From NCBI GenBank assembly GCA_017991835.1, contig JAGOPY010000002.1, positions 1-64,000 of the forward strand: a DNA stretch of 64,000 bases, written 5' to 3'. Under the pieces are notes generated by a model, which saw only the letters and a program-made list of their open reading frames with translations, was not told the DNA's origin and searched no databases. The translations under genes were made by a program, and so were the position numbers. Origin of the DNA: Bacteroidales bacterium (GTDB taxonomy: Bacteria > Bacteroidota > Bacteroidia > Bacteroidales > JAGOPY01). Every line of letters begins with the position of its first letter. The stretch's first letter is position 1. Shown here piece after piece: positions 1-25,606 of this stretch.

Positions 1-3000
1 TAGGTGCGGACGGTGGTCTCAATACAACCGTTCATCGCCGGGGTCCCGTCGGAGATCCAGGTGACGGTGGGTGTTCCGCAGTTGTCGTCTTCGTCGGTCA
101 CGACGGTGATGTCGGGATCGGGGAAGGTGCCGTTGCAGCCGGTGAGCACGATGTCAGCCGGGTTGGAAGCCGTCGGGTCGGTCTTATCAGCCGCAACACC
201 AAAATATCGGGTGATAGAAGCTGTCGAACAACCGTCAGTAACACTGTAGATAATTTCCACTGTATCTCCCGTGCAGATTGGCGGTGCTGTATATCCGCTG
301 AGATCTGGTGTAACCACTCCGCAACCGTCTTCCGTTACGGCAAACTGGCTCTTCCAGGTGGCAAAAGCATCATTAATTTCAGTCTGATCAGCATAATCAC
401 AGGTGTGTGAATACGAGTCGGGTGGACCCGTTACAGCAACATCAATTCCAAGTCCTGAAACCGAACCATCCCTGAAGTAATAACTTTCGGGAGTCCTGCA
501 ATATGTTAATGTAAATCCTTCAGAATAAGGCAAATATTCACTGGTAACCAAATCCCATGTTAGATCAGTGGGACCATCACAACCATTATAAATAAAGCTA
601 ACAGTAAATAGTACGGTATTATCCGGCAAAGTAAGACCTTCAGTATCCGCATAACCAGAAGCAACTACCTGTCCAGGCTCCGGATTTCCAATCAAAAAAC
701 TTGTCCATGTCATCAGCGGATTAACCGTATATGAATTATAAGTCAGTGAATCGGGATCATATAACATTGTCAATGAAATGATTCCAACTTTCATAAACTG
801 CGATACGGTCACATCAATGTCTACCTGGTCTCCGGCACAGTAACCTGTCAAATCGGGCAGAGTGGTGATAGGCCCGCCAACCCAGATAGTATCTTTGCAT
901 TGAATGGAATTATTACATTCATCAGTTGCAGTCCAGGTGATGATCGTCTCTCCTAAGGGCAGTACTTTCCCTGACAGGGAGGATCCTCCGCCGGAATAAT
1001 TATGAGAAACTGAAATTACACTACTGCAATTATCTGTGATATTGGTCGGGTCGAATTCTGTTCCAATTATTGTGTAAGTAGTGCCACCCAAAACGCTCGG
1101 ACAGCGGCTTCCGCTTGGAGCACAGGTTAATGTCGGAGGTTCATCATCACCTCCTGTATAGGAAACAACAGCATTCGGTGCGAAATTATTACACGCATCC
1201 TTAATCGAATAGGTATAGGTGGCTGACCATGAGCAGTCATCTCCTGTAATTGAAGTGTTGACAAGAGTAGCAATAACAGTGCCGCAATTGTCTGTATATT
1301 GTGCTTCGATATCTCCTGTGATGGGAGGATCTTGGGCATCGTCATAACAAACATTGCCCATATCTCCTCCCGGCAAAGTGCCGGTCAGTTGGGGCGGGGT
1401 ATTATCGACAGTTCGCTTCAGGTTTTGGTAAACATAAATAAAATTACCGCATTTGTCGGTAACTTTATATGTCCTGACCATCGTTTCCAGGCAACCATTC
1501 ATTGTGGGTGTACCGTCAGAAAAATGTGTTACGACTGGTGTTCCGCAATTATCCGCTTCATCGGTTACTACATGTATGTCAGGACTCGGATAAGTTTCAT
1601 TACAGGTTGTAAGGACGATATCAGGTGGGTTGGATGCAGTCGGATTGATATTATCATCAATAAATACAACCCTGGTCGCGGTATCTTTACATAATTCCGG
1701 AGAATTTGTTACAATCAGTTTTAAAGTATAAGAAGAATCACATAAGGCGCCTGTATTGACAGTGACAGATTGGGAAGTTGTTGAACCTGATATGGATCCG
1801 TTTCCGGTGATCGACCAGTTATATTGAAGCCCAGCCGGACCGGAATAGGTGTTCGTTGTTAATGGACACAACGATTCAGTGCCTGTTACCGTTATGGATG
1901 ATACAGGTGTGGGTTTGACAGTAAGGATCACTTCATCATCCGCGGTGCAATACGAGGTGCCATTATAGGTTACTACTGTCAATTTCATGGTGGCTGTTGT
2001 ACCATAAACTTTAACTGTCGTGGTATCGGAAGAAGCATCTGTGATTACCGGCGCTGTTCCCCCATCATAAGAAACGGTTGACCATGTGGTTGAAAAGACG
2101 TTATAACCCGGAGATGGATTTGCAACGCCTTTAAGTGTAAATTCGGTATAAGCCCCTTCGTCACATTCAGATTGAGCTGCTCCGGCTTCAGCCGTTCCAA
2201 ATTGGAGTTCGGTAACCTGGATGGGAGCAATAAAGTCGTCCAGGTTTGCTGTTGCCGAATTTGACATCTTCCCTTTGACGAATATGGTAGTAATCCTGAT
2301 GTCGTTGCATGCGCTGATGTTTCCGATCAAGCTGGTTAGATCGACCGCCACTTCAATAAATGTGTTAGTCTGATAAGTATTGCTTCCAAATGACAACCAG
2401 GGTGAAGGTACGGTTGTAAGATAATTTGATGATGCATACACAGAGCCCGCGGGGAAAGTAGTATAAAGCACATAATTATAGGTGCTTCCAACAAGCTGCC
2501 ATCTCCAGACTTCAAATGTGGCAGGCCCGTTATTGGCAAAATGGGCCGATATAACAAAGTCCCCAACAGTTCTGCCTCCTGTCGAAGCCGGGGCATCACT
2601 GACGAAAAGGTTCGTATTAAAATTTTGATATACACTATCCTGGAAAAATTCAAAGTCGATCCATGATTCTCCGGTATTGGAAAACCGGTCCGCACCAAGG
2701 ATGGCCCAAACATGTCCCGTGGTAGTATCGGTAGTGAGATGGATCATGACATGATTCATGTCATTTTTTCTATTTGTGGATGTATTTGTAAATCCCCAGG
2801 TGTTTGGATTGCCATTGAATTTATCCCCGCCATCGAAGGCATTGTCCTGGTTTGTATTCCATACATCTGTACTGAAATAAGTCGTACTGGCATTCACAGG
2901 AACACCAGTATTCGATAAGACAAAACCGCCGGTTCCAGTACCTCCTGCCGCCCAGTCACCTATTCCACTTGTTGGCACATTGGCCTGAAGATTCCCTTCA

Positions 3001-3194
3001 ATTCTAAATCCTCCGGTAGGGGGGTAAACAGGACCTGTTCCATCCATTTGAGCAAGGCTCGGCAGGCTCGAAAAACTAAAGAAGATGAGAATTATAAAGA
3101 CAAATGCCAATCTAACAAACAGAGGCAAAGTGCTTATGCTTTTAAAACAACAAACCTTCCTGTTATTTGACTCAATAGGTAGAAAATTTTTCAT
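1..3194 (-). CDS. Secreted HYR/Ig-repeat protein with cohesin-like module (partial, C-terminus outside window)
   Basis: An open frame runs from an ATG at 3194 to the window edge (about 1064 codons) with no stop, so the C-terminus is missing. A hydrophobic signal segment ends near SLPSLAQ (about residue 50). A beta-rich module follows (about 60-280), then Ig-like repeats. Next come HYR-like repeats with the recurring text TASNPxDIVLTxCN and DNCGTPxVT (one near 1490-1680, another at 1-200), and a cohesin-like segment (CAGDQVDIDVTVSQFMKVG and onward, about 770-850). The two HYR copies are close in protein sequence but differ in base composition. Such proteins are typical T9SS cargo in Bacteroidota; the sorting tail, if any, lies beyond the window. 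It is the last of six minus-strand secreted-protein genes. Function is probably adhesive, by inference. Confidence 0.85.
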   Translation of the reverse strand, partial: MKNFLPIESNNRKVCCFKSISTLPLFVRLAFVFIILIFFSFSSLPSLAQMDGTGPVYPPTGGFRIEGNLQANVPTSGIGDWAAGGTGTGGFVLSNTGVPVNASTTYFSTDVWNTNQDNAFDGGDKFNGNPNTWGFTNTSTNRKNDMNHVMIHLTTDTTTGHVWAILGADRFSNTGESWIDFEFFQDSVYQNFNTNLFVSDAPASTGGRTVGDFVISAHFANNGPATFEVWRWQLVGSTYNYVLYTTFPAGSVYASSNYLTTVPSPWLSFGSNTYQTNTFIEVAVDLTSLIGNISACNDIRITTIFVKGKMSNSATANLDDFIAPIQVTELQFGTAEAGAAQSECDEGAYTEFTLKGVANPSPGYNVFSTTWSTVSYDGGTAPVITDASSDTTTVKVYGTTATMKLTVVTYNGTSYCTADDEVILTVKPTPVSSITVTGTESLCPLTTNTYSGPAGLQYNWSITGNGSISGSTTSQSVTVNTGALCDSSYTLKLIVTNSPELCKDTATRVVFIDDNINPTASNPPDIVLTTCNETYPSPDIHVVTDEADNCGTPVVTHFSDGTPTMNGCLETMVRTYKVTDKCGNFIYVYQNLKRTVDNTPPQLTGTLPGGDMGNVCYDDAQDPPITGDIEAQYTDNCGTVIATLVNTSITGDDCSWSATYTYSIKDACNNFAPNAVVSYTGGDDEPPTLTCAPSGSRCPSVLGGTTYTIIGTEFDPTNITDNCSSVISVSHNYSGGGSSLSGKVLPLGETIITWTATDECNNSIQCKDTIWVGGPITTLPDLTGYCAGDQVDIDVTVSQFMKVGIISLTMLYDPDSLTYNSYTVNPLMTWTSFLIGNPEPGQVVASGYADTEGLTLPDNTVLFTVSFIYNGCDGPTDLTWDLVTSEYLPYSEGFTLTYCRTPESYYFRDGSVSGLGIDVAVTGPPDSYSHTCDYADQTEINDAFATWKSQFAVTEDGCGVVTPDLSGYTAPPICTGDTVEIIYSVTDGCSTASITRYFGVAADKTDPTASNPADIVLTGCNGTFPDPDITVVTDEDDNCGTPTVTWISDGTPAMNGCIETTVRT

Positions 3195-3375
3195 GATTTT
3201 GGGTTGTTTGATTTAATTTATTTGGACTTGGGATGATGGAGGGGGTATAACGATTTGGTTAAGAGGTATTATGGCGGTGATGTTGATCCGCTGAAATAGC
3301 AGATCAATAAAGCAAAAGAACAATCCCGGGGGTGGAAACTGTTACAATTCATGATCTTGGGTTTGCAAAAGTCTG

Positions 3376-3409
3376 CAAAGTTAAGCTTGGCAGCCAATTG
3401 ATAGGCAAA
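3376..3409 (-). promoter_or_regulatory. Candidate Bacteroidota promoter for the 3194 gene
   Basis: On the minus strand TTTG (3409-3406), a 22-nt spacer and TAACTTTG (3383-3376) match the -33/-7 pattern of this phylum. The leader to the ATG would be about 175 nt. Overlapping alternative -7 boxes lie nearby, so the exact start is uncertain. Confidence 0.4.
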
Positions 3410-3520
3410 TATACGTATTATTTTTATGATTTTGTTAAAAATACTTCAAAATTTAGAACAAATCTAAATAGTTTTTCCGACCCGGGTGCATTACTTGGTC
3501 AACTTTAGGAAATAATTAAC

Positions 3521-3558
3521 AAAAAAAGAGGCTGCCCGGATGAACCAAACAGCCTCTT
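3521..3558 (-). terminator. Intrinsic terminator after the small CTERM-type gene
   Basis: Read on the minus strand, a 9-bp stem AAGAGGCTG / CAGCCTCTT (3558-3550 and 3534-3526) with a 15-nt loop is followed by a T-run. A near-identical stem terminates gldJ at 18994-19029. Confidence 0.8.
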
Positions 3559-3618
3559 GGTTTTAATGATTAAGATTATCTCCTTTAAGGGAGACTTAAA
3601 ATCATTATCTTAGATTTT

Positions 3619-3858
3619 CTATTCTTCCAGTTTCTTCCTGGCGTCATAGACTTTCTTGCTGCCATATCCCGCACCCAGGGCAAGCAGGATGATCAATCCG
3701 CTGCCGATCGGCGCATAGCCGCCTACAGGCCCGTTTCCGCCACCTGACGGATCACCGCCCGGATCGGGTGGCATGGGCTGAGCCGCTAACGTAGTGACGG
3801 TAATCGCGAAAGTGATGAAGAAAACTGTCCGGAGAACTATTTTTATCGCTTTTTTCAT
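3619..3858 (-). CDS. Small secreted protein with CTERM-like Gly/Pro-rich tail
   Basis: About 79 aa from the ATG at 3858. I prefer this to a TTG 24 nt upstream, because the TTG lies inside a -7 promoter box and the signal peptide MKKAIKIVLRTVFF begins at the ATG. After cleavage near TLAAQ comes a Pro/Gly-rich linker (PDPGGDPSGGGNGP), the segment APIGSGLIILLALGAGYG, and a basic tail SKKVYDARKKLEE. This order (short motif, hydrophobic stretch, basic end) resembles the tiny CTERM-type sorting proteins widespread in Bacteroidota (PID-CTERM-like); I assign that from memory of the motif and could not search it. It has its own promoter box and terminator, so it is transcribed alone among large secreted-protein genes. 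Its function is unknown. Confidence 0.75.
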   Translation of the reverse strand: MKKAIKIVLRTVFFITFAITVTTLAAQPMPPDPGGDPSGGGNGPVGGYAPIGSGLIILLALGAGYGSKKVYDARKKLEE

Positions 3859-3879
3859 AGCTTTTATTTTTATCGTTTG

Positions 3880-3887
3880 CAAATTTA
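3880..3887 (-). promoter_or_regulatory. -7 box (TAAATTTG) of the small CTERM-type gene
   Basis: The octamer matches TAnnTTTG and lies 21 nt upstream of the ATG at 3858. I see no clear -33 TTG. Confidence 0.45.
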
Positions 3888-3912
3888 CTGTTTTTTAAGC
3901 CTTTTGAGCCGA

Positions 3913-6438
3913 TTACTTAACGAACACCTTCTTCGTCACCGTGTTATTGTCTGAAATAACCTTGACAATGTAAACGGCATTTCCTTCCGCGACAGCGATC
4001 TCATTCGTGCCTTTGCTTGCGGAAACACGACCGACTTCCTGTCCCAGGATGTTGTAGAGTATGATTTGTCCCGATGTTCCGGTGAAATCAACATAGATCA
4101 TTTTATTGGCAGCATAAATGCTGTTAACCTGTGTGGCCGGATCATCGCCTATACCTGCAAATTCGGCAAAGTGAACGGCAAACCGCTGCGACATCCCTTC
4201 CTGTGAATTGAACGTGTAAGAGGTGGTTTCGCGCAGGTTCATCTTCTGGCCCGTTACCTTATCTTCCAGGTAAACCGGGACACCGGCATCAAAGCTCTCC
4301 AGGTTGGAAACCAGGATCGTATATTCACCGGCTTCAGGAGTATTGACTCCCATATCGATTTTTACCGTTTGTGTATAATTATTGAAGGTGTTAATGGCCA
4401 TCATTTCATCGTTCAGCATCGTGTAAAGCTGAGGTGCATTCTGCGACAACAGTTTCTTTGCATCATACGAATAATCGATCTCCGGGGTTGCATTGGCATC
4501 GAAACGGATCAGGGCTTCATCGTTGATCTCCCCATTGGAAATGGTCAGACTCAGCATATTGTCAAAATTGCCGTTGGATTTCCAGAAATCCTGTGTGCTA
4601 TGAACCCTTACAGCATTGTTAACTCCCAGAGAACCGGCTGCGCTGGCATTGACAAAGAATCCCTGCGCGGCAGGAATAAATTGTGTTCCACCGTTTGTTC
4701 CGGGGCCGCCATAGACATAACTCGAATAAGTGCCGCCGTTCCATACGTAGTATGCATCGGTGGTAAGATTGGTCTTGGTCCATCCGGCTGCATCCCAGTC
4801 AACTGCCGATACATAAGGATTGCCGACAAAATTCCATCCATCCCCGTTTTTGGTGAGGCCTTTACTGATGGCTCCCGTATTCAGCGTACCATCGTAATTG
4901 ACCGTTGTATCGTCAACCGGATCCCAACCCTGGTGCCATGGGTTCACGCTGGAGGTCCACGCGGCATATCCCTTCATAAGGCTTAACGGTGTGGTCTCAT
5001 CTTCTATGAAAGCATCCCAGTCGCTGGCGCCTTCATTGTAAGTAAATAACCAGAGGTGCAGGAATACGTTCGCTGTAGCTGCTGTTGTGGGTTGTGTGAC
5101 ATACCAGAAGCGGTCTGCATCCAGGAAACGCTGTACTGAAGCCGTACCCGAAACCGTTCCGTAGGTGATCAACGATCCGTCGCCGTCAACCTCGTCTGAA
5201 GCAATGAGCAGACCAACTCCGGCGCCACCAATGGCCAGGTTATTGGCATAGGCATTGTCTCCGTTGGAGATCATAGGGACCGTTTCCCCTGCATTCGGAA
5301 TGGCTACATTATGACCTGCATCCGGGATGAAATTCTGTGCCCAGTTGGCTTTCAAACGCCACTCGGACGAAGGGACGCCATCCCAGGTGATCGTAGAACG
5401 GTGGCTTCCCGGGGTCATATCGGTATTCTGTGCCGCGCTGATCGCCCATTCGGAAGCAGTCATGGTCATGTTTGGCGCTATGATATCATACAATCTTACC
5501 GCATGTTTTCCGGTGAAATCAAATGTACTCCCATCATAAACATCAATACCTGTCCCGGTTGTATAATCACCATAGGTAGATAACAGGTAATTCGTCGCTC
5601 CTCCCGTTCCTACTACAGTGGAGGTCAGGGTAGGTGTGAAATCGACTGCATCATAGCCAACCGTATATTTTGCTCCGGCAGCCAGTGTGCCGGTCAGTTT
5701 CACGCTTGAACTGCCATTTGCATTCAGATACCATGCATAATGGTTAGTGAAATCGACAGCCGTTGCTCCAGCATTGTAAACCTCCACAAAATTGGTAGAA
5801 GAGTTCGACGGATCGCCCACTTCGGAAATGATCAGGCTTGTATTCGGGTTGGAGGGAAGCGTTAGCAGGTTGTTTTCTGCAGTAATAGGAGTGTAGTTTA
5901 TTGTTGTTGAAGCATTATTAACCAGGACATAATTTTGTCCGCTTTGCATACTTCCACCTCCGGAAATAAAGAAGCCAATACCACAATCACCACTTCCAGT
6001 TATAAGCATTTTATACCTGACCACACCCTGGTAAGTGGTTGTAAGATTGCTTAAAAAAGCAATCTTATACGATCCATTATGAGGGGGAAGGGTTTTAAAT
6101 GCAAGGAAAGTTGAACCAAATGTATTGGCGTCAATTGAAACAATATCAGTGTTAAAGTTATAACCCGTCGGTTGAGCCAGTACCAGCTTTTCAACCACAA
6201 CCGGTGTGGCGGAAGAGCCGAACACGGTTGTGCTGAAATCAACCTTTATTGTAAAGGTAGTGGTGTAGGTGGTGTTTGTTGTGGCCTTTGCCTCCACATC
6301 AAAAATCAGAGTGTCGGGCCCGGCGGCCGGAGCAATCTTGAAATTGTTGAACCGGTATGTGATCCCAACTTGCGATTGGCCGGTAAATCCAACCAGAATT
6401 AAGACCCCCAGGATTAAAAGTGATTTTATTTTTTTCAT
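3913..6438 (-). CDS. Secreted lamin-tail-domain protein with T9SS type A sorting domain
   Basis: About 841 aa from the start that gives the clean signal peptide MKKIKSLLILGVLILVGF; an in-frame ATG 24 nt upstream (6462) is possible. The region after the signal is beta-rich. A lamin-tail-like domain follows (about 200-270; SLIISEVGDPSNSSTNFVEV, YTVGYDAVDF). The middle carries repeated Trp/Gly motifs (WNFVGNPYVSAVDWD, YYVWNGGTY) common in large Bacteroidota surface proteins. The last 75 or so residues (IILYNILGQEVGRV ... YIVKVISDNNTVTKKVFVK) are a T9SS type A C-terminal domain, so export by T9SS and anchoring by PorU/PorV is expected. No catalytic motif is visible. It lies head to tail with the cohesin/dockerin gene upstream. 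Confidence 0.88.
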   Translation of the reverse strand: MKKIKSLLILGVLILVGFTGQSQVGITYRFNNFKIAPAAGPDTLIFDVEAKATTNTTYTTTFTIKVDFSTTVFGSSATPVVVEKLVLAQPTGYNFNTDIVSIDANTFGSTFLAFKTLPPHNGSYKIAFLSNLTTTYQGVVRYKMLITGSGDCGIGFFISGGGSMQSGQNYVLVNNASTTINYTPITAENNLLTLPSNPNTSLIISEVGDPSNSSTNFVEVYNAGATAVDFTNHYAWYLNANGSSSVKLTGTLAAGAKYTVGYDAVDFTPTLTSTVVGTGGATNYLLSTYGDYTTGTGIDVYDGSTFDFTGKHAVRLYDIIAPNMTMTASEWAISAAQNTDMTPGSHRSTITWDGVPSSEWRLKANWAQNFIPDAGHNVAIPNAGETVPMISNGDNAYANNLAIGGAGVGLLIASDEVDGDGSLITYGTVSGTASVQRFLDADRFWYVTQPTTAATANVFLHLWLFTYNEGASDWDAFIEDETTPLSLMKGYAAWTSSVNPWHQGWDPVDDTTVNYDGTLNTGAISKGLTKNGDGWNFVGNPYVSAVDWDAAGWTKTNLTTDAYYVWNGGTYSSYVYGGPGTNGGTQFIPAAQGFFVNASAAGSLGVNNAVRVHSTQDFWKSNGNFDNMLSLTISNGEINDEALIRFDANATPEIDYSYDAKKLLSQNAPQLYTMLNDEMMAINTFNNYTQTVKIDMGVNTPEAGEYTILVSNLESFDAGVPVYLEDKVTGQKMNLRETTSYTFNSQEGMSQRFAVHFAEFAGIGDDPATQVNSIYAANKMIYVDFTGTSGQIILYNILGQEVGRVSASKGTNEIAVAEGNAVYIVKVISDNNTVTKKVFVK

Positions 6439-6478
6439 AATGACCATGTTTATCTTGAACATTAATTAAATTATTTCA

Positions 6479-6486
6479 CAAAAGTA
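6479..6486 (-). promoter_or_regulatory. -7 box (TACTTTTG) for the lamin-tail gene
   Basis: TACTTTTG on the minus strand lies in the 67-bp gap upstream of the lamin-tail gene. If transcription starts 6-8 nt downstream, both candidate start codons (6462 and 6438) would be on the mRNA. Confidence 0.4.
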
Positions 6487-6505
6487 ATACTACTTAATGT
6501 ATTAA

Positions 6506-8779
6506 TTAGGGTATATAAGTGAATATTGGATAGTTAAGGAGCAAATAATACACATCACCCGCAAAAACTTCTCCATCCAGATCCAAATCAGAGTTAATAT
6601 AGGCTCCGAAAGTCGGATAATCATTCAGGAAAATACCTACGTCACCTGCGAAAACTTCACCGTCATTATCAATATCGGCAGAGTACATTCCAAATACTCC
6701 CGAAGCAATCTCCTTTTGCTGCGATCCATAGGCTTTTGCCACATCATCCGTAAAGTCGTAGGTATAAACCCCGCCAACCTGCGTTAGCGCGGCAGACGAC
6801 ATAACCCTTATATGGTTCCTGTGCCAGATGACAACATAGATATTATCTTCAAAAGAGGTGGGGAATAGCAGGTCACTTTCTCCATCCAGGTCAACAATAT
6901 ACCCATTGTCGAGTATAAATCCGGCTTTTCTGGCAACTGTGGTTGCAGCCGTTGCCGTTTCCACATCGCCTTCGGTTTCGCGGATCTCCACCAGGACCCA
7001 GTCAACTACATTTGGGTTTGGCATCTCTGTCACACTTTCCGTTCCGGTATATTCCCAGGGCAGGCCACCGTATGGCTGAGCCAGGGGAAGAAGGTCAAAG
7101 TCGTTCAGATAGGCATTCATGGTCGTACCGTTGAAAGGCCCTTCAAGGAAAGTCTTCAGGTTAAACAATGTTCCATTGATAACCCCACCGTCAAAGTATG
7201 CAACCGGTATGAATGTCAGGTCGTTCTGGGCAAAGTCGCAACCGGCATTGAAGGTCAACGGACAGGTGCCGCCAATGTATGTGAAATGCAATGTAAAGAT
7301 GACATCTTCATTATTCGGATCAATATCCCAACCGTTCAGGTCGGTCCATTGTACGCCGATCTGTGGCCCCGGCATGTTATTGATAAAGTAATTGGTCAAG
7401 GTACCCGGAGTGTGGCCGGTATATGTCAACACGTCGTCGTCGTATCCGATAAACAATGAGATAGCGGCCGGATCCATGATAAAGTTCCTGGCTGTAACAG
7501 GGATATTAATAGTTTGTCCGATAGTTCCGGTCAGTGTGGGCAGGCTCAGTTCCGGTCCGCCCAATACCGGCGAAATACTTCCGTCAACATAGGTCACAGG
7601 AAAAAGGACCAGCTCATTGTCGGTGATTTCGCAGCCCCCTTCAAAGGTGATGGCGCTGGCGCCGAAGTTATAGTCGAAGTTCAGCGTCAATAAAGTTCCG
7701 TCGATCAGGGCGCCATTATAATTGCTCCAGGTGATCCCTATCATTCCCGATCCCATCATATTAGCCGATGCACCTGTTATCGATCCACCGGTAATCCCGA
7801 CGAAATCGAGATGACCGGGGTTATAACCAATGAAAAGTGTTATAGCACCCATCATGTTTGGGTCAAAACCGGCAGCCGTAATCGGAATCCCGATGATATT
7901 ACCGGGAGTTTCCACGACATCGCCGATAGTCAGACTATAGGCTGATGCCAGCGGTTGAACAAATCCATTGTCATATGAAACCACCGGTGTTGTCAGGTCG
8001 GTATAGGCCACTTCGCATCCGGATTTGAAAATCAGGTCACTTGCACCTGTCCCGTCATAAACAAAATTCAGGGTCAGGAAGGAGTCGTTCAGGTCGCCGC
8101 CACCCGGATTGGAATAAGCCACGCTGATCATGCCCGAAGTATTGTTTCCGCTAACCAGAAGGGCAGTGAGTGTGCTTGAATAGCCTGTAAATTGCAGTAC
8201 GTCCGGATCAAACTCCATATAAAGAGTTACTGCGCCGGCCAATTGCCCAAAATCAGCCCCGGTCACGTTAACCGATACCGGGCCTGCTGTTGAGAGCACC
8301 TCGTCGATCGTGATGCTTGCGATGCCTGCGTTCGGAGTAATGCTTCCATTGGTGAATTCAACCGCAATCGGGTTAAGAGCATTGTCAGTAAACTCACATC
8401 CTGCATTAAAGGTAAGTTCGCAAGAACCACCCAGGGCGTTGTACTGAAAATTCAGCGACAACAATATCCCGTTAATATCCGCCCCGTATGGATCAGTCCA
8501 TTGAATACCAACCTGTTCCGTACCTGACATATTATTGATAAAATATGTGGCAAACTCTGCGTCGCCTGGAGTAGATCCTGTAAATGTCAGAACATTCGGA
8601 TCATAACCGATAAACAGAGATACCGCCCCGACATTTGTCGGCAGATCATTTACAGTGATATCAAAAGATACCGCTGAGCCGGGATTTGCTGTGAGTGATT
8701 CAATTTGAGCAGTCTGAGCTTTCAAATTAAATGACCACGCCAGAAGTACTGTTAGTAAAAGGTAAATTTTCCTATTCAT
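6506..8779 (-). CDS. Secreted protein with four cohesin-like modules and a C-terminal dockerin-like pair
   Basis: 757 aa with signal peptide MNRKIYLLLTVLLAWSFNLKAQ. Four tandem cohesin-like modules lie at about 26-148, 154-273, 282-402 and 411-533. Each has the pattern GAVSLFIGYDPNVLTFTG ... NGILLSLNF ... FNAGCEFTDN with a Cys in the same place. Residues 540-690 form a module often placed before dockerins in this phylum (NAYLNDFDLLPLAQPYGG, VVDWVLVEIR). The C-terminus (about 700-757) holds two calcium-loop repeats, DIDNDGEVFAGDV and DLDLDGEVFAGDV, typical of dockerin type I. I see no T9SS sorting tail, so the export route is unclear. Carrying both partner modules on one chain would allow end-to-end assembly with its neighbours; that is inference. 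It probably shares a transcript with the gene 44 bp upstream. Confidence 0.88.
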   Translation of the reverse strand: MNRKIYLLLTVLLAWSFNLKAQTAQIESLTANPGSAVSFDITVNDLPTNVGAVSLFIGYDPNVLTFTGSTPGDAEFATYFINNMSGTEQVGIQWTDPYGADINGILLSLNFQYNALGGSCELTFNAGCEFTDNALNPIAVEFTNGSITPNAGIASITIDEVLSTAGPVSVNVTGADFGQLAGAVTLYMEFDPDVLQFTGYSSTLTALLVSGNNTSGMISVAYSNPGGGDLNDSFLTLNFVYDGTGASDLIFKSGCEVAYTDLTTPVVSYDNGFVQPLASAYSLTIGDVVETPGNIIGIPITAAGFDPNMMGAITLFIGYNPGHLDFVGITGGSITGASANMMGSGMIGITWSNYNGALIDGTLLTLNFDYNFGASAITFEGGCEITDNELVLFPVTYVDGSISPVLGGPELSLPTLTGTIGQTINIPVTARNFIMDPAAISLFIGYDDDVLTYTGHTPGTLTNYFINNMPGPQIGVQWTDLNGWDIDPNNEDVIFTLHFTYIGGTCPLTFNAGCDFAQNDLTFIPVAYFDGGVINGTLFNLKTFLEGPFNGTTMNAYLNDFDLLPLAQPYGGLPWEYTGTESVTEMPNPNVVDWVLVEIRETEGDVETATAATTVARKAGFILDNGYIVDLDGESDLLFPTSFEDNIYVVIWHRNHIRVMSSAALTQVGGVYTYDFTDDVAKAYGSQQKEIASGVFGMYSADIDNDGEVFAGDVGIFLNDYPTFGAYINSDLDLDGEVFAGDVYYLLLNYPIFTYIP

Positions 8780-8823
8780 ATCATTAAATTTTAATTATTT
8801 TCTTATATTTTAATGTCTTTATT

Positions 8824-10518
8824 TTAATGTATCCTGAATATTTTATTCTCTCCGGTAAATACTTTACCTGATTTAACCCCTTTCATTTTCAGCAGAAACA
8901 GGTTCCCCGAGATTCCGGAAATATCCAGTTTGTAGCTGGATGCTCCGCGGATAGCTATTCCGTTTTCTCTTAGCAGCAACTTTCCGTCAACTGTATATAA
9001 TTCTAATAAAATCCATTCCGGGTTATTTCTAAATTCAATGTTTATTATATCCTTAACAGGATTAGGATAAACCGAAATAAAGTTTAGTCCCGGCAATTCG
9101 GAAACGAGGGTTAACGTATCAACAAATAATACTGCCGCTTCGGAAAAAACAGAGCAATAATTGCTTGCCAGCCGGCACGCATATTGATACTCGTGCAGAT
9201 CGAGGGAAGCAGGGCTGATGGTCAGGACAGGGGTTTGAGTATTATAATAAGGTATCGCATCGTCCAGTTCGTCCCAGCTGTTACCTCCGTCCTCACTGAC
9301 AAGCCACTGGAAACTTACGGCATCTGTCGCTTCCACTGAGAATTCCGCCGTCCCGTTTTTAAGTACCGTATCATTTACGGGTTGTATTATTAGATAAGGT
9401 ATGACATATTGGTTGATCAGCCCATCATTCAGGGTAATAGTCAACGGATTGAATGAGGAGTTAATGACAACGGTCCCTTCTTCAAAAGAAAGGGTTTGCG
9501 TTGCCGATTCATAAAACAATACCATTTGGAACAGCATACCATTGCTCACTGTGACAGGATCTTCATTGGTCCAGTGAATAGTGATCCCGGGTTGTCCGAC
9601 AAGTGGTGAGGTGACCATCTCGCCGGATTGCAGATCGGGATGGATATTTTCTAGCTCCAGGAAGGTTAGTTCTGTCGTATCAAATGAAATATTGAAGTTA
9701 AATTCGATTATATCAAATAAATCGCCTGCATAAACAGGTACTGAAACGATGTCGGCAGGGCAGGAGGCTGTCTGGCCGATGGTTGCCACCGGGAAAGCTG
9801 TGGCTACTTCCAATAGTGCAATGTCTGATACCAGGGTACATTCTTCGTAAGTCAGGATGCACTGGTAAAGATTTTCGTTAAAACTCAACGGGACGTTACT
9901 TATCGAAAGTGAGTCGGAGTTAACACCTGAATAAGGGCCGTTGTTTTGCAGGTTTGTCCAGCCGGAGCCTGAATCCTCCTGCCACTGGTAAGTTGTATTG
10001 CCCACCGAGGTGATCTTAAAGAACACATCGTTATTTGGGTAAGATTGTACACTATCCGGTTGGTTAATGATTTCGATACTGTTGAAGATACTGCCGGAAT
10101 AAGATTCCAGGGGGATAATTTCCAGCATGGTATTGGCTATTTCGGTGCCCGGGTTAAAGGTAAGAAGGGTTGAATCAACCAGGTAGGTAAAACTGAGATC
10201 AAACAGTTTTTCGCCCGAAATATAGAAAGGATTAGGGTTGCTATAGGCTATATTAACTTGTCCGCCGATATCGTTGTAAGAAATGAATCCGGGGATTTGC
10301 GGGTTTATATTCAGGATAGAATTGAAGATAGCCACATTGGTATCGTAACCGATGAAAATGGTCATGGCCCCGACATCATTGAAATCGACCACATCCATAG
10401 GAACCATGACATCTTCTCCGGCGCAGGAGGCGATATTTCCGAGAGTGGCTATGGCAGTTTGCGATTTCATGAGCAGGGGTTGAAGTGCGATAATCAATAT
10501 GACTATTGTAATCCGCAT
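8824..10518 (-). CDS. Secreted protein with two cohesin-like and two Ig-like modules and T9SS tail
   Basis: 564 aa with signal peptide MRITIVILIIALQPLLMKSQ. The modules alternate: cohesin-like (about 24-140, VGAMTIFIGYDTNVAIFN), Ig-like (about 150-240, YQWQEDSGSGWTNLQNNGPY), cohesin-like (about 246-370, FDTTELTFLELENI), Ig-like (about 378-465, FQWLVSEDGGNSWDELDD). The last 90 residues (FISVYPNPVKDIINIEF ... GENKIFRIH) are a T9SS type A sorting domain. It belongs to the same family of modules as the adjoining 757-aa protein and is probably the promoter-proximal gene of that pair. A strong terminator separates it from the giant gene upstream. No enzyme motif is seen. Confidence 0.88.
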   Translation of the reverse strand: MRITIVILIIALQPLLMKSQTAIATLGNIASCAGEDVMVPMDVVDFNDVGAMTIFIGYDTNVAIFNSILNINPQIPGFISYNDIGGQVNIAYSNPNPFYISGEKLFDLSFTYLVDSTLLTFNPGTEIANTMLEIIPLESYSGSIFNSIEIINQPDSVQSYPNNDVFFKITSVGNTTYQWQEDSGSGWTNLQNNGPYSGVNSDSLSISNVPLSFNENLYQCILTYEECTLVSDIALLEVATAFPVATIGQTASCPADIVSVPVYAGDLFDIIEFNFNISFDTTELTFLELENIHPDLQSGEMVTSPLVGQPGITIHWTNEDPVTVSNGMLFQMVLFYESATQTLSFEEGTVVINSSFNPLTITLNDGLINQYVIPYLIIQPVNDTVLKNGTAEFSVEATDAVSFQWLVSEDGGNSWDELDDAIPYYNTQTPVLTISPASLDLHEYQYACRLASNYCSVFSEAAVLFVDTLTLVSELPGLNFISVYPNPVKDIINIEFRNNPEWILLELYTVDGKLLLRENGIAIRGASSYKLDISGISGNLFLLKMKGVKSGKVFTGENKIFRIH

Positions 10519-10559
10519 TCTATTTTTCTTTCCGCCTAATTATTCAATTAATTTATTTT

Positions 10560-10601
10560 AAAGATAAAACCGAAGAGGGGAAGGGGACTTCCCCTCTTCG
10601 G
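10560..10601 (-). terminator. Strong intrinsic terminator after the 1887-aa repeat protein
   Basis: On the minus strand a perfect 14-bp stem (10601-10588 with 10583-10570) and a 4-nt loop are followed by TTTTATCTTT. It should stop transcription before the gene at 10518. Confidence 0.85.
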
Positions 10602-10613
10602 GTAATTCACATA

Positions 10614-13600
10614 TTATTGAGAGATAACCATACGTTGGGTTGAGATGAAGTCGCGTGTTTCGCCGTCGACAGTGATCTTATAGAGATACACTCCGGTTGC
10701 GAGACCGGCTGCGCTGAATTCGACGGTATATGAACCGGCGGTTTGCGTAGCATCTACCAGTACAGCGATTTCCTGGCCAAGCATATCAAGTACGCTTAGT
10801 TTGACTTTACCGCCTTCCGGCATAGTGTATTCGATAAAGGTCGAATTGTTGAACGGATTAGGCCTGTTAGCGCTCAGGAAGTAATCCACAGCAGCCGGGC
10901 TGGTGGTAACACCAAACGATTTCAGGGTAACCGGTTCAATCACCTTAGCCTGTGCATCGGCGAATTCGGAGTTCATACCTACGCTGAACATAGCTTCTGC
11001 AGTGGCTACTTCGCTGATTGCTTTCACTTTCAGTGTCACCACTACATCATTTTCAGCCAGGGTCATCGGGTTCACATTGCTGAACGCAATACCGACGTTA
11101 TTTTCGTTGATGTTGAAGATCATACCTTCAGCAGCAACAACGTCAACTACTTCGTAAAGTGCCGGGTTGTAGTCGAGCGTAAGGGTCATAGCGCCGAATG
11201 TGTTGGCATCGGCGATTCTGACCGGCAGTTCGAATACCTGTCCGGTAACCACGTTGATCGTACCATCAGTTACCAGGTCGATAGCCGGCATACTCTTCAT
11301 CGAGTTCGGGTTATTGGACCTGTTAGCATCACCCACGTTCAGGGCGAAGATTTCGTAACCATCCACAGCCTGAGTTGACATAGCCGGGTCGAATGCCCAG
11401 TTGCCTGCCGGGAAGTAGCCGATCATGTTGATCGCGCGCTGTTTGATCCACAGAGCGTCGGTAGCATTGATGGTTGAGCTGTTGTTAGCATCCATTGCTT
11501 CGGCCACAACATCGTCATAGATGAAGCCGACGGGCAGGTTGTTGATTGCTTTCAGTTCGACAGCGAGAGCATCAGTTGCATTGGCGCCGTACCATGGAGC
11601 ATCGTACGTTGCAGTCAATCCGAAGGAGGTCGTGGCATTCAGGCCGGTGAATTCAAAGTAGCCCATGCCATTGTCTTCGAGGTCGTTGAAGGATGTTGTT
11701 GTCATAACCGGTACATCACCGTTCCACAACTGGATTTCAACACCGTTCAGCGGAGTTTCGCCATTGTTATGGTAGTAGACATATCCTGCCAGGGTGGCAT
11801 CGCCAATGGTTCCGGCGGGCCATACCTTAACATCCATATAGTCGTAGTTGCAGCAGCCGGTGCAGGTGTCGAATACCGTCAGGGTAATTTCGCCCCAGCC
11901 ACCGTTTACATTGTAGTCGGTCCACAGAACTTCGATGCACTCCGTTCCCTGGCCTTCCACGATCTGTCCGCAATGTTCGGCGGTCCAGGTGTAGAGCAGG
12001 CAATCCATGTCATATTCTTCCGGGCATACATTGCAGTAGGTCGAGATCATATCGACTTCGGCAACGTCTGGTCCTTCGATATTGGCACACGGCAGGTGGT
12101 TCACGAAGAACTTCCATTCTTCGGTTGTGGTGCATCCCTGCGGGCTGGTGATGGTCAGGTACAGGCGGGCGGTATCGCAGCATTCGCCGAAGCAAATGAA
12201 TACGTCGTCGCTTCCTCTCCAGCAGTTGTCGTCGCAGTCGTACCAGTAAGGTTCGGCCTGCATATAGCTTCCGGCGGGTCCGATAAAGCTCCACTCGTAG
12301 GTGTAACCCGGGATCGGTCCTTCGTTGCAGAAGCAGCTCCAGTCGATGCCTAAGCTGATGCAGCTACCGGCGCAAACTTCGATAACTCCGGTTTCCGGAT
12401 CAACGCCGGGCTCCTTGGGCTCTATACGGTATCCATCAGGATACAGGCAGCTTACTTCGCAATTCGGGCATTCGCCGTCGTAGCAGTTTGAAGGATTGAT
12501 CGAGCCTTCCAGGGCAACTTCTTCCGGAATCTTATTGAAGGTGATATAAACGATATCTTCCCCTTCACATTCGCCAACACCGTTGACCCATTTGAAACCA
12601 TAGGTTCCATAATGTGTACCCAGGCAGTCGTCAACCACGCAGATCTCAGCATTTGGATCCAAAATATCGGAAATCTCATAGGCTTCGCTGTAGCTAATAA
12701 CAAACTGGTCTAAAGTACAAGGATCAACCGGAGGTTCATAGCTCACAAATTCCCAGTACGAATAACCGTTGTCTCCTGTACAGGTGTTCTCCAGGTAAGG
12801 TTCTGCCTGCATTTCGTAACAGTTGCCACATAATGAAGCATCTGGTCCTGCATCAGGTACGGGTGTTTCAACGAACACTACGAACACATCGAAATAGTCT
12901 GCGCACTCGGTTTCACCGTCAACTGATACATTAACCTCATTCCAACGAACGGTGTAGCAACCATAAACGGTTACACAGAGTTCGGTAGCCGGGTCGGTAT
13001 CATCGGCAAAGGTTACAGGTCCGGGTCCGTCGATCAGTTCCCAGTAGGATTGATCGTCGTAGTTCGGGCAATCACCTGCGTCAGTTCCAAAGTATTCATA
13101 TTTATCAATATAGGCTAAACCAAGGTCGATGCAGAGTTCGTCACATTCGGCCAGTAATTCGTCGTATTCGCCCCATGCAGTAGGCTGCTCGAGCAGATCG
13201 AAGATAACATCGTCGGATGCTTCGCATTCTTCAGCGTCATTCCATACCGTCCAGGTCAGGATATAGCGTCCGGGTTCCTGGAAGCAGGCTTCGCTTGCCG
13301 GGTCATTAACATCTGTAAATACTACATCACCGGGGCCGCAAGATTTGGTCCATACGCCATACATGCTGTAGCAGAAGTCGTAAGTGGCGGTCATCGTGTA
13401 GCAATACGGGGTGTAAGCGATATCGACGCAGGCGTTGACATCGTCACCGGCATCCGCAACCGGCTGTTCGAAGATAAATACGCTCACCAGGTCATAGGTT
13501 TCGCATACGCCTTCGTACATACCGTTGAATTCGGTAAACCGGAAGATATATTCGCCATATTTACACTCACCGGCACAAGGTCCGATCAGGACATCGGTTT

Positions 13601-16277
13601 CGAGCGAAGTCGGATCAGTGATGACCACATCGCACTGGGCGCCTTCCGGCTGTGATTCGAGTGTCCAGCTATAGTAGTTATTGTAGTTAACGCCAAAGTC
13701 ACCGCAATAGTCATAACCCACAGCGGTCAGGCTGAAAGCAAAGTCATTGCAGAGATACAGGTCTTCACCGGCGTCGACATCCATAGGTTGTTCAAATATC
13801 CATACCGAAACTTCGTCAGAATCTTCGCAGATCGGGAAGAAACGGATCATATCGCCAACCTGGGCATAGTAGCCATTGTACTGGGTCATGCGGAAGACAT
13901 ATTCACCATACTGGCAAGGAGAACATTCGGAAATATATACCAAAGGATCTTCAATGCTTTCAGTTTCAAAATCAACATCGCATGTTCCGGGCTGTGAGAT
14001 AAGTTCCCATTCGATTATGTAAGACCATCCTTCGGTGCAAAGCTCATCATAAGTACCATCCAGTTGGAATTCAAAAGTATTGCAGAAGTACAGGTCATCA
14101 CCGGCATCCACATCGGGTTGTTCGTAGATATAAACATCGACATCGTCATAGCCTTCGCATCCTATCTCTTCATTGTTGACCTCTACCTTATTATACTCGT
14201 TCCAGCGGAAGGTATATTTACCCCACGGGCAGGCAGGTGCGTCGGTGATCGTAACACCAGTTTCGGGATCATTGCTGTCGTCGAAAGTAACGGTTGCCGG
14301 AATGTCGCCGACATATTCCCAATAGCCGCCAGCAAAGTAGTTAACGCCGGCTTCTCCGCAGAAATCAGTCGGAATTGCGGTCAGGGTAAATGCAAAGTCG
14401 TTGCAGAGGCGCAGGTCGTCGCCGGCATTGGCAACAACATCTTCGAGCACCCATACGGAAACTTCGTCTGAAGATTCACAAACTTCGACAAACTGCTCAT
14501 TCTCATTATAATAGCCATTTGCCTGGTTCAGGGTGAAGACATATTCGCCATATTCGCACTCATCATCACATTCTGAAATAGTAACCAAAGGAGTCAGAAT
14601 ATTGGCATCGTTGAAAGTGATGAGGCAGTTACCGGGTTCTGAAGTTTTCTCCCAGGTATAAACGACTACAGTTTCTTCGTAGCAAGGTTCATCACCGATG
14701 CCATAAAGAGTAAATGCAAATGTATTGCAGAACGCCATGTCGTCTCCTGCGTCGGGTGCCGGGTCTTCGTAGATGGTATAAACAACGTTATCATCGTCGA
14801 AGCAACCACCCAGGTCTCTTCCTTTGGAGTTTTCCTCATTCCACTTGAATTCATAGGGACCCCAGATACAAGCATCAGGGTCAGTGGAAGTGATGGTTAC
14901 TGTGGTGTTGGGATCATTCGGGTCGGTGAAGGTAACGATAGCGGCCGGGTCCGGGGTGGAAACAACTTCCCAGTACCGGGTGGCCCAGTAGTTAACGCCT
15001 TCGGTTCCGCAGTATTCAAACGGTACTGCATTCAGGCTGAAGCTGAATGTATTGCAAAGGTGCTGGTCATCACCGGCATCTGCAATCGGCTGCTGGTAGA
15101 ACCGCAGGTACATTTCATCTTCATCGTAGCATTTTCCATTTTGGACCTGGAATTCGACCAGATATTCACCGTAGGAGCATACCGGAGGGAATTCTTCGCG
15201 GCACACATATGTCGTAAGCGCATATTCGTCATCGAAATCAAGGGTTCCCGGGCCACTCATCTGTACCCATGAATAGGCATAGGTAGGAGAATAGGGGGGC
15301 AGGGGAGGCTCGCCAAGGCCAGTGGATCCGTGCAGTGAGTAATAGCAAAGATCATTGCAGACATTCACATCGGGACCAGCATCAGCGATGGGTTCGCAGG
15401 CAAAGTTGATAATGATTGATGTCGAATCGGGGCAATCCCTGTCAGTACCTTCGTACAAGGTATGGACTACGAGTGTGAGTTCGTATAATCCGCAAGGATC
15501 AACGGTCAGCCAGAAACCTTCGGCTACTTCAGGACCTGCATAAGGCAGATCATTCAGGAACCATTCCAGGTCGTAAGTGAAATCATCCGGCATATCTACT
15601 AAAACGTCGACCCATGTGGTCAGACCGCAAACGTCATCAGCTTCCAGTTCAACCTCTTCCGGACCGAAGAAGAAATATTCGGTTTCCACATAAGCATATT
15701 CATATGTGAATGTCGGGTCATCCCACTCATAGGCCAGTGTATATACACCAGGAGCATTCACCTCGAAAATCTGCGAATACTCATTCAGGGGCAGTAAGAA
15801 ATTTACCGTAGAACCGGTAGGCTGATCGACCACCATCCAGGTACCCCATGAAGGATTAGCCGGAGGACAACAGTCAACCGGAGGGTAGTTAGGGCACTGG
15901 TCTGGTAATGTACCTGCCGAGGCAATCTGGGTTTCAAAGTCCCCCGGGTTTTCAACGTCAAAGCAAGCGACGTAGGAAACGATGAAGTAGGTACAACCGT
16001 CAGTATCGCGGTTGCCGTTTCCGGCATCACCTCTCCTGACTTTTGTTCCCGGAGTGGCCTGGATATTCAGGTATGCATAATACCCCGGTTCCAGTTCTAC
16101 ACTCCCGACAGCAGGATTTTCCAGGGCCTCAATCAGTTGCTGGTCGGTAGCCACTCTCACTGATTTGCCCACCTGGGCATTGGCCGTGAAGCCAATCAGT
16201 GTCATGGCTAATACCAGCAGTACTGCCTTTAGAGGCACCAGCAGGCATTTGTGTTTTAATTCGTAGTTTGTTTCCAT
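10614..16277 (-). CDS. Giant Cys-rich acidic repeat protein with dockerin-like, cohesin-like and T9SS sorting domains
   Basis: 1887 aa with a signal peptide ending near TANAQ (residue 35). About nine tandem units of about 105 aa each start with a DAGxD...C motif: about 298, 400, 509, 617, 724, 836, 942, a divergent one near 1041, and 1142. The units are acidic and rich in Cys and aromatic residues, as in PKD-type surface repeats. Cys-rich linkers follow (1250-1480). Then come a dockerin-like region (about 1555-1625; YGANATDALAVELKAIN and DANNSSTINATDALWIKQRA), a cohesin-like module (about 1665-1790; FGAMTLTLDYNPALYEVVDV) and a T9SS type A sorting domain (about 1797-1887; NRPNPFNNSTFIEY ... 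GVYLYKITVDGE). Length, repeats and Cys content point to an extended, probably disulfide-braced, surface protein. No catalytic residues are visible. It has its own promoter and terminator. Confidence 0.9.
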   Translation of the reverse strand: METNYELKHKCLLVPLKAVLLVLAMTLIGFTANAQVGKSVRVATDQQLIEALENPAVGSVELEPGYYAYLNIQATPGTKVRRGDAGNGNRDTDGCTYFIVSYVACFDVENPGDFETQIASAGTLPDQCPNYPPVDCCPPANPSWGTWMVVDQPTGSTVNFLLPLNEYSQIFEVNAPGVYTLAYEWDDPTFTYEYAYVETEYFFFGPEEVELEADDVCGLTTWVDVLVDMPDDFTYDLEWFLNDLPYAGPEVAEGFWLTVDPCGLYELTLVVHTLYEGTDRDCPDSTSIIINFACEPIADAGPDVNVCNDLCYYSLHGSTGLGEPPLPPYSPTYAYSWVQMSGPGTLDFDDEYALTTYVCREEFPPVCSYGEYLVEFQVQNGKCYDEDEMYLRFYQQPIADAGDDQHLCNTFSFSLNAVPFEYCGTEGVNYWATRYWEVVSTPDPAAIVTFTDPNDPNTTVTITSTDPDACIWGPYEFKWNEENSKGRDLGGCFDDDNVVYTIYEDPAPDAGDDMAFCNTFAFTLYGIGDEPCYEETVVVYTWEKTSEPGNCLITFNDANILTPLVTISECDDECEYGEYVFTLNQANGYYNENEQFVEVCESSDEVSVWVLEDVVANAGDDLRLCNDFAFTLTAIPTDFCGEAGVNYFAGGYWEYVGDIPATVTFDDSNDPETGVTITDAPACPWGKYTFRWNEYNKVEVNNEEIGCEGYDDVDVYIYEQPDVDAGDDLYFCNTFEFQLDGTYDELCTEGWSYIIEWELISQPGTCDVDFETESIEDPLVYISECSPCQYGEYVFRMTQYNGYYAQVGDMIRFFPICEDSDEVSVWIFEQPMDVDAGEDLYLCNDFAFSLTAVGYDYCGDFGVNYNNYYSWTLESQPEGAQCDVVITDPTSLETDVLIGPCAGECKYGEYIFRFTEFNGMYEGVCETYDLVSVFIFEQPVADAGDDVNACVDIAYTPYCYTMTATYDFCYSMYGVWTKSCGPGDVVFTDVNDPASEACFQEPGRYILTWTVWNDAEECEASDDVIFDLLEQPTAWGEYDELLAECDELCIDLGLAYIDKYEYFGTDAGDCPNYDDQSYWELIDGPGPVTFADDTDPATELCVTVYGCYTVRWNEVNVSVDGETECADYFDVFVVFVETPVPDAGPDASLCGNCYEMQAEPYLENTCTGDNGYSYWEFVSYEPPVDPCTLDQFVISYSEAYEISDILDPNAEICVVDDCLGTHYGTYGFKWVNGVGECEGEDIVYITFNKIPEEVALEGSINPSNCYDGECPNCEVSCLYPDGYRIEPKEPGVDPETGVIEVCAGSCISLGIDWSCFCNEGPIPGYTYEWSFIGPAGSYMQAEPYWYDCDDNCWRGSDDVFICFGECCDTARLYLTITSPQGCTTTEEWKFFVNHLPCANIEGPDVAEVDMISTYCNVCPEEYDMDCLLYTWTAEHCGQIVEGQGTECIEVLWTDYNVNGGWGEITLTVFDTCTGCCNYDYMDVKVWPAGTIGDATLAGYVYYHNNGETPLNGVEIQLWNGDVPVMTTTSFNDLEDNGMGYFEFTGLNATTSFGLTATYDAPWYGANATDALAVELKAINNLPVGFIYDDVVAEAMDANNSSTINATDALWIKQRAINMIGYFPAGNWAFDPAMSTQAVDGYEIFALNVGDANRSNNPNSMKSMPAIDLVTDGTINVVTGQVFELPVRIADANTFGAMTLTLDYNPALYEVVDVVAAEGMIFNINENNVGIAFSNVNPMTLAENDVVVTLKVKAISEVATAEAMFSVGMNSEFADAQAKVIEPVTLKSFGVTTSPAAVDYFLSANRPNPFNNSTFIEYTMPEGGKVKLSVLDMLGQEIAVLVDATQTAGSYTVEFSAAGLATGVYLYKITVDGETRDFISTQRMVISQ
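12800..15400 (-). repeat. Intragenic tandem repeat block (about nine units of about 105 codons)
   Basis: DAGDDxxxCN-type anchors recur at 102-112-residue intervals inside the 1887-aa gene. Units at about residues 400, 617 and 836 share the text CGxxGVNY. Those at about 509 and 724 share xISEC ... YGEYVF ... NGYY. The block is therefore an alternating A-B-A-B-A series with a two-unit period of about 216 codons. Confidence 0.75.
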
Positions 16278-25543: not shown

Positions 25544-25573
25544 GATTTTTTAAACTTCAGGCAACTTTTTAAC

Positions 25574-25600
25574 TTGTAAGGGTGTCTTAGACTATATTTG
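25574..25600 (+). promoter_or_regulatory. Promoter-like element just upstream of the second porU
   Basis: TTG (25574-25576), a 16-nt spacer and a perfect TATATTTG (25593-25600). The -7 box ends 6 nt before the ATG at 25607, so transcripts from it would be nearly leaderless. Confidence 0.45.
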
Positions 25601-25606
25601 TACAGG

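Follow-up and report, generated by a model that had tools for sequence, protein, structure and literature searches.

Can neighbouring secreted proteins that carry cohesin-like and dockerin-like modules, without an enzyme among them, build a calcium-dependent scaffold on the surface of a Gram-negative bacterium? This question is raised by one end of contig C6, part of a 3.48-Mb MAG from the Bacteroidota (76% complete). The first 64 kb of the contig were analysed and are referred to here as the window.

Organization of the gene cluster

Five neighbouring genes, all on the minus strand, lie within positions 1-16277, and four of them carry cohesin modules (eight in total). In the order of transcription they encode a 1887-aa protein (10614-16277), a 564-aa protein (8824-10518), a 757-aa protein (6506-8779), an 849-aa LTD protein (3913-6462) and, truncated at the contig end, a PKD/HYR/cohesin protein (3-3194). 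A previous sequence-only reading had named the four cohesin genes, and each was recovered at the coordinates given. The existence of a cohesin/dockerin gene cluster is confirmed. The gene of the LTD protein, which lies inside the cluster and carries no cohesin, had been left out of that list. Pfam identified no enzyme among the products of the five genes, so the description of the cluster as devoid of enzymes stands for these genes; in relatives the dockerin dyad described below is found on peptidases, GH57 proteins and a phytase, and there the description fails.

Type IX (T9SS) sorting tails were detected with PF18962 (cut-off 27 bits) and TIGR04183 (cut-off 23 bits) on the 1887-aa, 564-aa and 849-aa proteins (the last with 26.2 bits to TIGR04183). 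Two of the four cohesin genes thus encode such a tail, as had been claimed. The Pfam and NCBIfam profiles gave no T9SS tail on the 757-aa protein or on the distal end of the cut one. Genes of the T9SS itself adjoin the cluster: gldJ is located about 3 kb away, and after it come a tandem pair of porU genes and porV. The products of the pair (21752-29428) are both full-length homologues of the PorU sortase (1343 and 1287 bits).

Position 1 of the window is the contig end. The reverse complement of the window start is the start of another contig of the same assembly (C20), with an exact overlap of 127 bp, which looks like a graph junction within a repeat. The search for linked genes beyond position 1 was rewarded, since this contig continues the cut gene. 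The joined protein, for which the count of HYR units across the junction is provisional, closes with a module that also forms the C-terminus of the 757-aa protein. The same protein end, together with a similar next gene, is present in a relative of the same genus. This next gene (L056:1545-2378; its counterpart in the relative is L062:1438-2241) encodes a 277-aa secreted protein that scores only 12 bits with the cohesin profile and has no match in Pfam or NCBIfam. Its C-terminus, a hydrophobic stretch with arginines (IPLSDWSLYLAIGLMVILSLFIYRRRISG), resembles an exosortase-type sorting tail.

The window genome contains a second large region with cohesins (contig C1:40000-120000, loci L050-L053). 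It holds cassettes of the anchor type (dockerin-cohesin-T9SS tail, see below), as well as variants of the C-terminal module followed by T9SS tails.

Cohesin modules

The cohesin profile PF00963 (cut-off 24.1 bits) recognized three of the four genes: that of the 757-aa protein (105.4 bits) in four stretches (8336-8722, 7958-8320, 7571-7939 and 7181-7558), that of the 564-aa protein (25.8 bits) in two (10087-10464 and 9415-9795) and that of the 1887-aa protein (24.9 bits) in one (10929-11282). The modules of the first two proteins were also matched by a lineage profile. The cohesin of the cut gene (531-872) scored 19.4 bits in hmmscan, which is under the cut-off, and 24.6 bits in the genome search, which is over it; the lineage profile gave 88 bits.

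A profile built from 52 modules of this kind matched 33 PDB sequences at E<=0.01. Every one is a chain of a cohesin, a scaffoldin or an anchoring protein, or else the cohesin-like module of clostridial NagJ; for two that bear the label endoglucanase, the titles of the entries give ScaB cohesin. The same profile has 27 matches in the whole window genome. The jelly-roll fold was compared for the cohesin of the 1887-aa protein, whose predicted structure superposes on the clostridial cohesin 1g1k over 119 residues (Z 12.9, 2.2 A), while those of the 757-aa protein were assessed by sequence. The modules had been picked out by eye and might have failed to match profiles or structures; instead, they matched. 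We conclude from the profiles and the model that they are real cohesins, for which the binding of dockerins is predicted.

On a phylogenetic tree the cohesins of the T9SS-tailed proteins formed two clades of their own and those of scaffoldin-like proteins were placed elsewhere, with 11 label changes compared with a mean of 46.5 for shuffled labels. As judged from this tree, the two are separate types.

The scaffoldin-like protein and its XDoc module

The 757-aa protein is composed of a signal peptide, the four cohesins and, at the extreme C-terminus, a 220-aa module (6509-7168), referred to below as XDoc (X-module-dockerin). Neither Pfam nor NCBIfam contained a match for this module, and Dockerin_1 (PF00404, cut-off 22.9 bits) did not match the protein. 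XDoc could therefore not be treated as a known Pfam or NCBIfam family, and PF00404, which misses it, was rejected as a means of counting dockerins; two XDoc proteins from a MAG with an archaeal label do pass this profile. One scan yielded at least 570 relatives of XDoc.

An AlphaFold2 model computed from the family alignment (105 sequences) had a pLDDT of 96.8. The ten best Foldseek rows for this model were all clostridial cellulosomal X-module-dockerin dyads. A second aligner (VIA) gave Z values of 9.6-10.8 over 141-148 residues for the model (1-220), with the CipA XDoc at the top (10.8); for comparison, a lone dockerin gave 4.7 and the next unrelated row 4.5. Lower rows (pilotin and transthyretin-like folds, Z 3.5-4.5) were set aside. 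In solved XDocs, the X module is carboxypeptidase-D-like and packs on the dockerin (PMC5141474). The dockerin part of the window module consists of two loop-helix F-hands with calcium loops of 12 residues each, DIDNDGEVFAGD (6641-6676) and DLDLDGEVFAGD (6554-6589); in the alignment, residues 1, 3 and 5 of both loops are conserved as D or N and residue 12 as D. Despite an identity of 12-17% to the clostridial dyads, the module is, according to its predicted fold, an X-module-dockerin dyad of type II, and binding to type II cohesins is predicted.

The combination of several cohesins with a dockerin, one of the features by which a cellulosomal scaffoldin is recognized, is thus present in the 757-aa protein and also in its relatives. 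Cohesin was the sole Pfam match of the window protein, which has no carbohydrate-binding module. Judged by its modules and by the XDoc model, its layout resembles that of a primary scaffoldin.

Proposed anchor proteins

The 1887-aa protein has a signal peptide, a PKD-like region, an X-like (CarboxypepD/SdrB-like) domain with a dockerin (11310-11801), the single cohesin and a T9SS type A sorting tail (10617-10904; TIGR04183 34.6 bits, PF18962 29.2 bits). The presence of dockerin-like calcium loops had been proposed for two of the four cohesin proteins; it is borne out for this protein by a family profile and for the 757-aa one by the XDoc model. PF00404, the profile suggested for this check, gave 18.0 bits, under its cut-off, for the 1887-aa protein. 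However, a profile (A6) made from 15 sequences of the X-like domain and dockerin matches PDB dockerins with E values between 5e-7 and 8e-6 (4dh2_B 5e-7, 4wi0_B 2e-6, 1ohz_B 8e-6) and aligns to two stretches of clostridial XDocs. In the alignment the second calcium loop is canonical and the first degenerate. An AlphaFold2 run with six homologues covered the region from the X-like domain through the dockerin and cohesin to the tail; the cohesin and the tail of the resulting model are usable, and the dockerin has a pLDDT under 50. Because of the degenerate loop and the poor model, the function of this dockerin is less sure. In one further genome (G053) the anchor-type X-like domain with dockerin was matched about 30 times, so this lineage seems to have expanded the dyad.

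The 564-aa protein is probably a second anchor. It has the order cohesin-Ig-cohesin-Ig-like-T9SS tail (tail at 8875-9072, PF18962 28.7 bits).

Distribution of XDoc and of its predicted partners

Within a survey of 296 Bacteroidota genomes, XDoc was found in 42, cohesin in 98 and PorU in 203. The distribution of XDoc is thus phylum-wide. A T9SS-tailed cohesin anchor followed by a cohesin scaffoldin with XDoc is a recurrent gene pair, seen in this order in twelve other genomes (L054, L065, L068, L070, L077, L133, L145-L149 and L153); in L145-L149 the profile gives a weak score or none for the dockerin part of the anchor, and the scaffoldin of L133 has one cohesin. Where XDoc is abundant, it greatly exceeds cohesin, the XDoc:cohesin counts being 110:7, 74:10, 53:5, 49:12, 48:4, 36:5, 33:3 and 13:0. 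Cohesin accompanies XDoc in 27 of the 42 genomes, and among T9SS genomes the proportions are 27/42 with XDoc and 66/161 without (p = 0.009, relatedness of the genomes ignored).

According to Pfam, the proteins tagged with XDoc include peptidases of families C25, C10, C1 and M14, GH57, phytase, CUB and LTD proteins. The enzymes among them are mainly peptidases, and GH57 occurs in two. A crude test placed a hydrophobic segment near the N-terminus of 81 of the 94 complete XDoc ORFs. Weak matches to multihaem cytochromes (cytochrome c7 or MtrC-like) were seen at L071:8252-10711, L084:9106-11562 and L100:8255-10669, and hint at surface cytochromes held by XDoc. The search of a viral collection gave three loci.

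The XDocs of scaffoldins were intermixed with those of cargo proteins on the tree, and a separate scaffoldin type of XDoc was rejected for want of a clade of its own. The two-tier specificity of clostridia is therefore not mirrored on the dockerin side. It follows that scaffoldin and cargo XDocs may share partners, and scaffoldins could perhaps form chains.

A probable surface scaffold and its alternatives

These data make it probable that the cluster encodes a calcium-dependent, cellulosome-like surface scaffold anchored through the T9SS. The 1887-aa and 564-aa proteins would be exported by the T9SS and fixed to the surface by their tails, with the cohesins facing outward; export of tailed proteins by this system follows from its known biology. 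The 757-aa scaffoldin, which has no such tail, would be caught by an anchor cohesin through its calcium-loaded XDoc and would offer four more cohesins. Proteins tagged with XDoc would then plug into the cohesins: for the window genome these are the PKD/HYR protein and a small number of others, for relatives dozens of proteins, peptidases included. In the window genome such an assembly probably forms a surface layer of protein or an adhesin array, and in relatives that tag many enzymes it would be a peptidase-rich complex held at the cell. Docking between cohesin and XDoc is predicted from the fold, the calcium loops and the organisation of the proteins.

This reading, which the sequence-only reading had put forward as a self-assembling structure, draws its strength from the conserved anchor-scaffoldin pair, the two types of cohesin, the canonical calcium loops and the up to 110 tagged proteins per genome; self-assembly itself is a prediction. 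The many plugs and few sockets of XDoc-rich genomes, the co-occurrence of XDoc with cohesin and the enzymatic nature of the cargo point in the same direction. The incompleteness of the window genome, the low-confidence model of the anchor dockerin with its degenerate first loop, the lack of a separate scaffoldin clade among the XDocs and twelve XDoc genomes in which a sensitive profile found no cohesin at E<=0.01 (five of them single-contig genomes, and also G047 with 13 XDocs) count against it.

The last observation would be expected if XDoc were a signal for export or retention at the surface, an alternative to the T9SS tail whose dockerin fold does not serve cohesin docking in Bacteroidota. 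Several features of XDoc would suit such a role. PorU is encoded in all 42 XDoc genomes (p = 4e-8), but this test, too, ignores phylogeny. In 119 of 135 copies XDoc lies no more than 30 aa from the C-terminus, and [VIL]P forms the last two residues of 109 of 121 such proteins; some copies, however, are internal or N-terminal, and some stand ahead of a genuine T9SS tail. On peptidases of C25, the family of the classic T9SS substrates, XDoc takes the place of the tail. Against this explanation stands the fold itself, which is that of an XDoc dyad, and also a MAG labelled Ca. Thermoplasmatota, which has 10 XDocs and 2 cohesins and in which no T9SS tails were found, so that XDoc does not depend on the T9SS. 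Bacteroidales genomes of this analysis have about 100 or more such tails each, and their lack in this MAG argues against contamination of the bin from Bacteroidales. We regard this explanation of XDoc as rather unlikely. Some XDoc proteins from five loci (L090, L099, L100, L128 and L131) reach a little beyond the usual end and close once more with CQVP or SQVP, which would suggest selection on the terminal residues themselves.

That the cohesin-like modules are beta-sandwich spacer or adhesion domains, with calcium loops that stabilise chain ends and with no docking at all, seems more doubtful still: cohesins outnumber dockerins in the window genome (27 vs about 12), their identity to solved pairs is low, and cohesin domains without dockerin partners exist, for example in the TMEM132 adhesion proteins (PMC6030884), but docking, and not a spacer, would predict multi-cohesin chains with a complete XDoc dyad at their end, a tailed anchor as conserved neighbour and two classes of cohesin.

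Comparison with known cohesin-dockerin systems

One of the closest parallels to the proposed scaffold is the clostridial cellulosome with its type II anchoring (the XDocs of CipA and ScaA with their anchoring cohesins; PMC5141474). There, too, a primary scaffoldin carries several cohesins and, at its C-terminus, an X-module-dockerin; the anchor cohesins are separate, the X module is carboxypeptidase-D-like and the dockerin has two calcium-binding F-hand loops. The system described here differs in its Gram-negative hosts, in the use of T9SS tails as anchors, in the presence of XDoc not only on the scaffoldin but also on cargo, in its peptidase-rich cargo without any cellulase seen, and in the low identity of XDoc given above. 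No dockerin-tagged plant-cell-wall glycoside hydrolase is encoded by the five window genes. By its membership the cluster is not a cellulosome, in agreement with the earlier view that it is not a standard one (enzymes and carbohydrate-binding modules are both missing), although it would work like one if the predicted docking is right.

A rumen study found no cohesins or dockerins in its genome and considered this consistent with other Bacteroidetes genomes (PMC5831590). This remark does not hold for the genomes surveyed here. As the window XDoc is unmatched by Pfam and NCBIfam and the module is present in 42 of 296 genomes in up to 110 copies, profile-based surveys of cellulosomes can miss it.

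It is conceivable, if at present tentative, that uncultured Bacteroidales possess a counterpart of the cellulosome that is bound to the cell and rich in peptidases. Dozens of enzymes, members of the gingipain family included, would bear XDoc in place of the T9SS tail, the T9SS would have to install no more than a few cohesin anchors, and XDoc proteins would be exported and retained by an undescribed route. If docking is confirmed, it would represent a second Gram-negative way of holding enzymes at the surface beside the T9SS tail, supply new cohesin-dockerin pairs for designed assemblies and provide a handle on protein degradation by uncultured Bacteroidales.

Related proposals have been made for other phyla. 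In the cellulosome-like complex suggested for Ca. Stygibacter (Cloacimonadota), secreted enzymes with C-terminal dockerins (C25 and GH57 among them) are likewise combined with a scaffoldin that a C-terminal sorting domain holds in place. It is a single scaffoldin of 3,755 aa with tandem cohesins and CBM2/CBM3, and neither an XDoc dyad nor an anchor-scaffoldin pair was reported (PMC8542988). The planctosome of Nemodlikiaceae (Planctomycetes) is a hypothetical peptide-degrading cohesin-dockerin complex that shares LTD, HYR and M14 with the proteins described here. It differs in having LTD as the proposed membrane anchor and one cohesin per chain, and no T9SS tail or multi-cohesin XDoc scaffoldin was described (PMC6461901). 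In ANME archaea a single chain can combine a dockerin with as many as five cohesins, again with no link to cellulose, but these proteins belong to an archaeal envelope, have ABC-transporter binding proteins as common cargo and feature S-layer domains (PMC9012536).

In the Thermoplasmatota-labelled MAG, XDoc proteins adjoin NosD/beta-helix proteins (L091, L151 and L159), one protein having a C-terminal membrane segment. The occurrence of XDoc and of two cohesin proteins in this MAG may reflect a transfer between domains of life.
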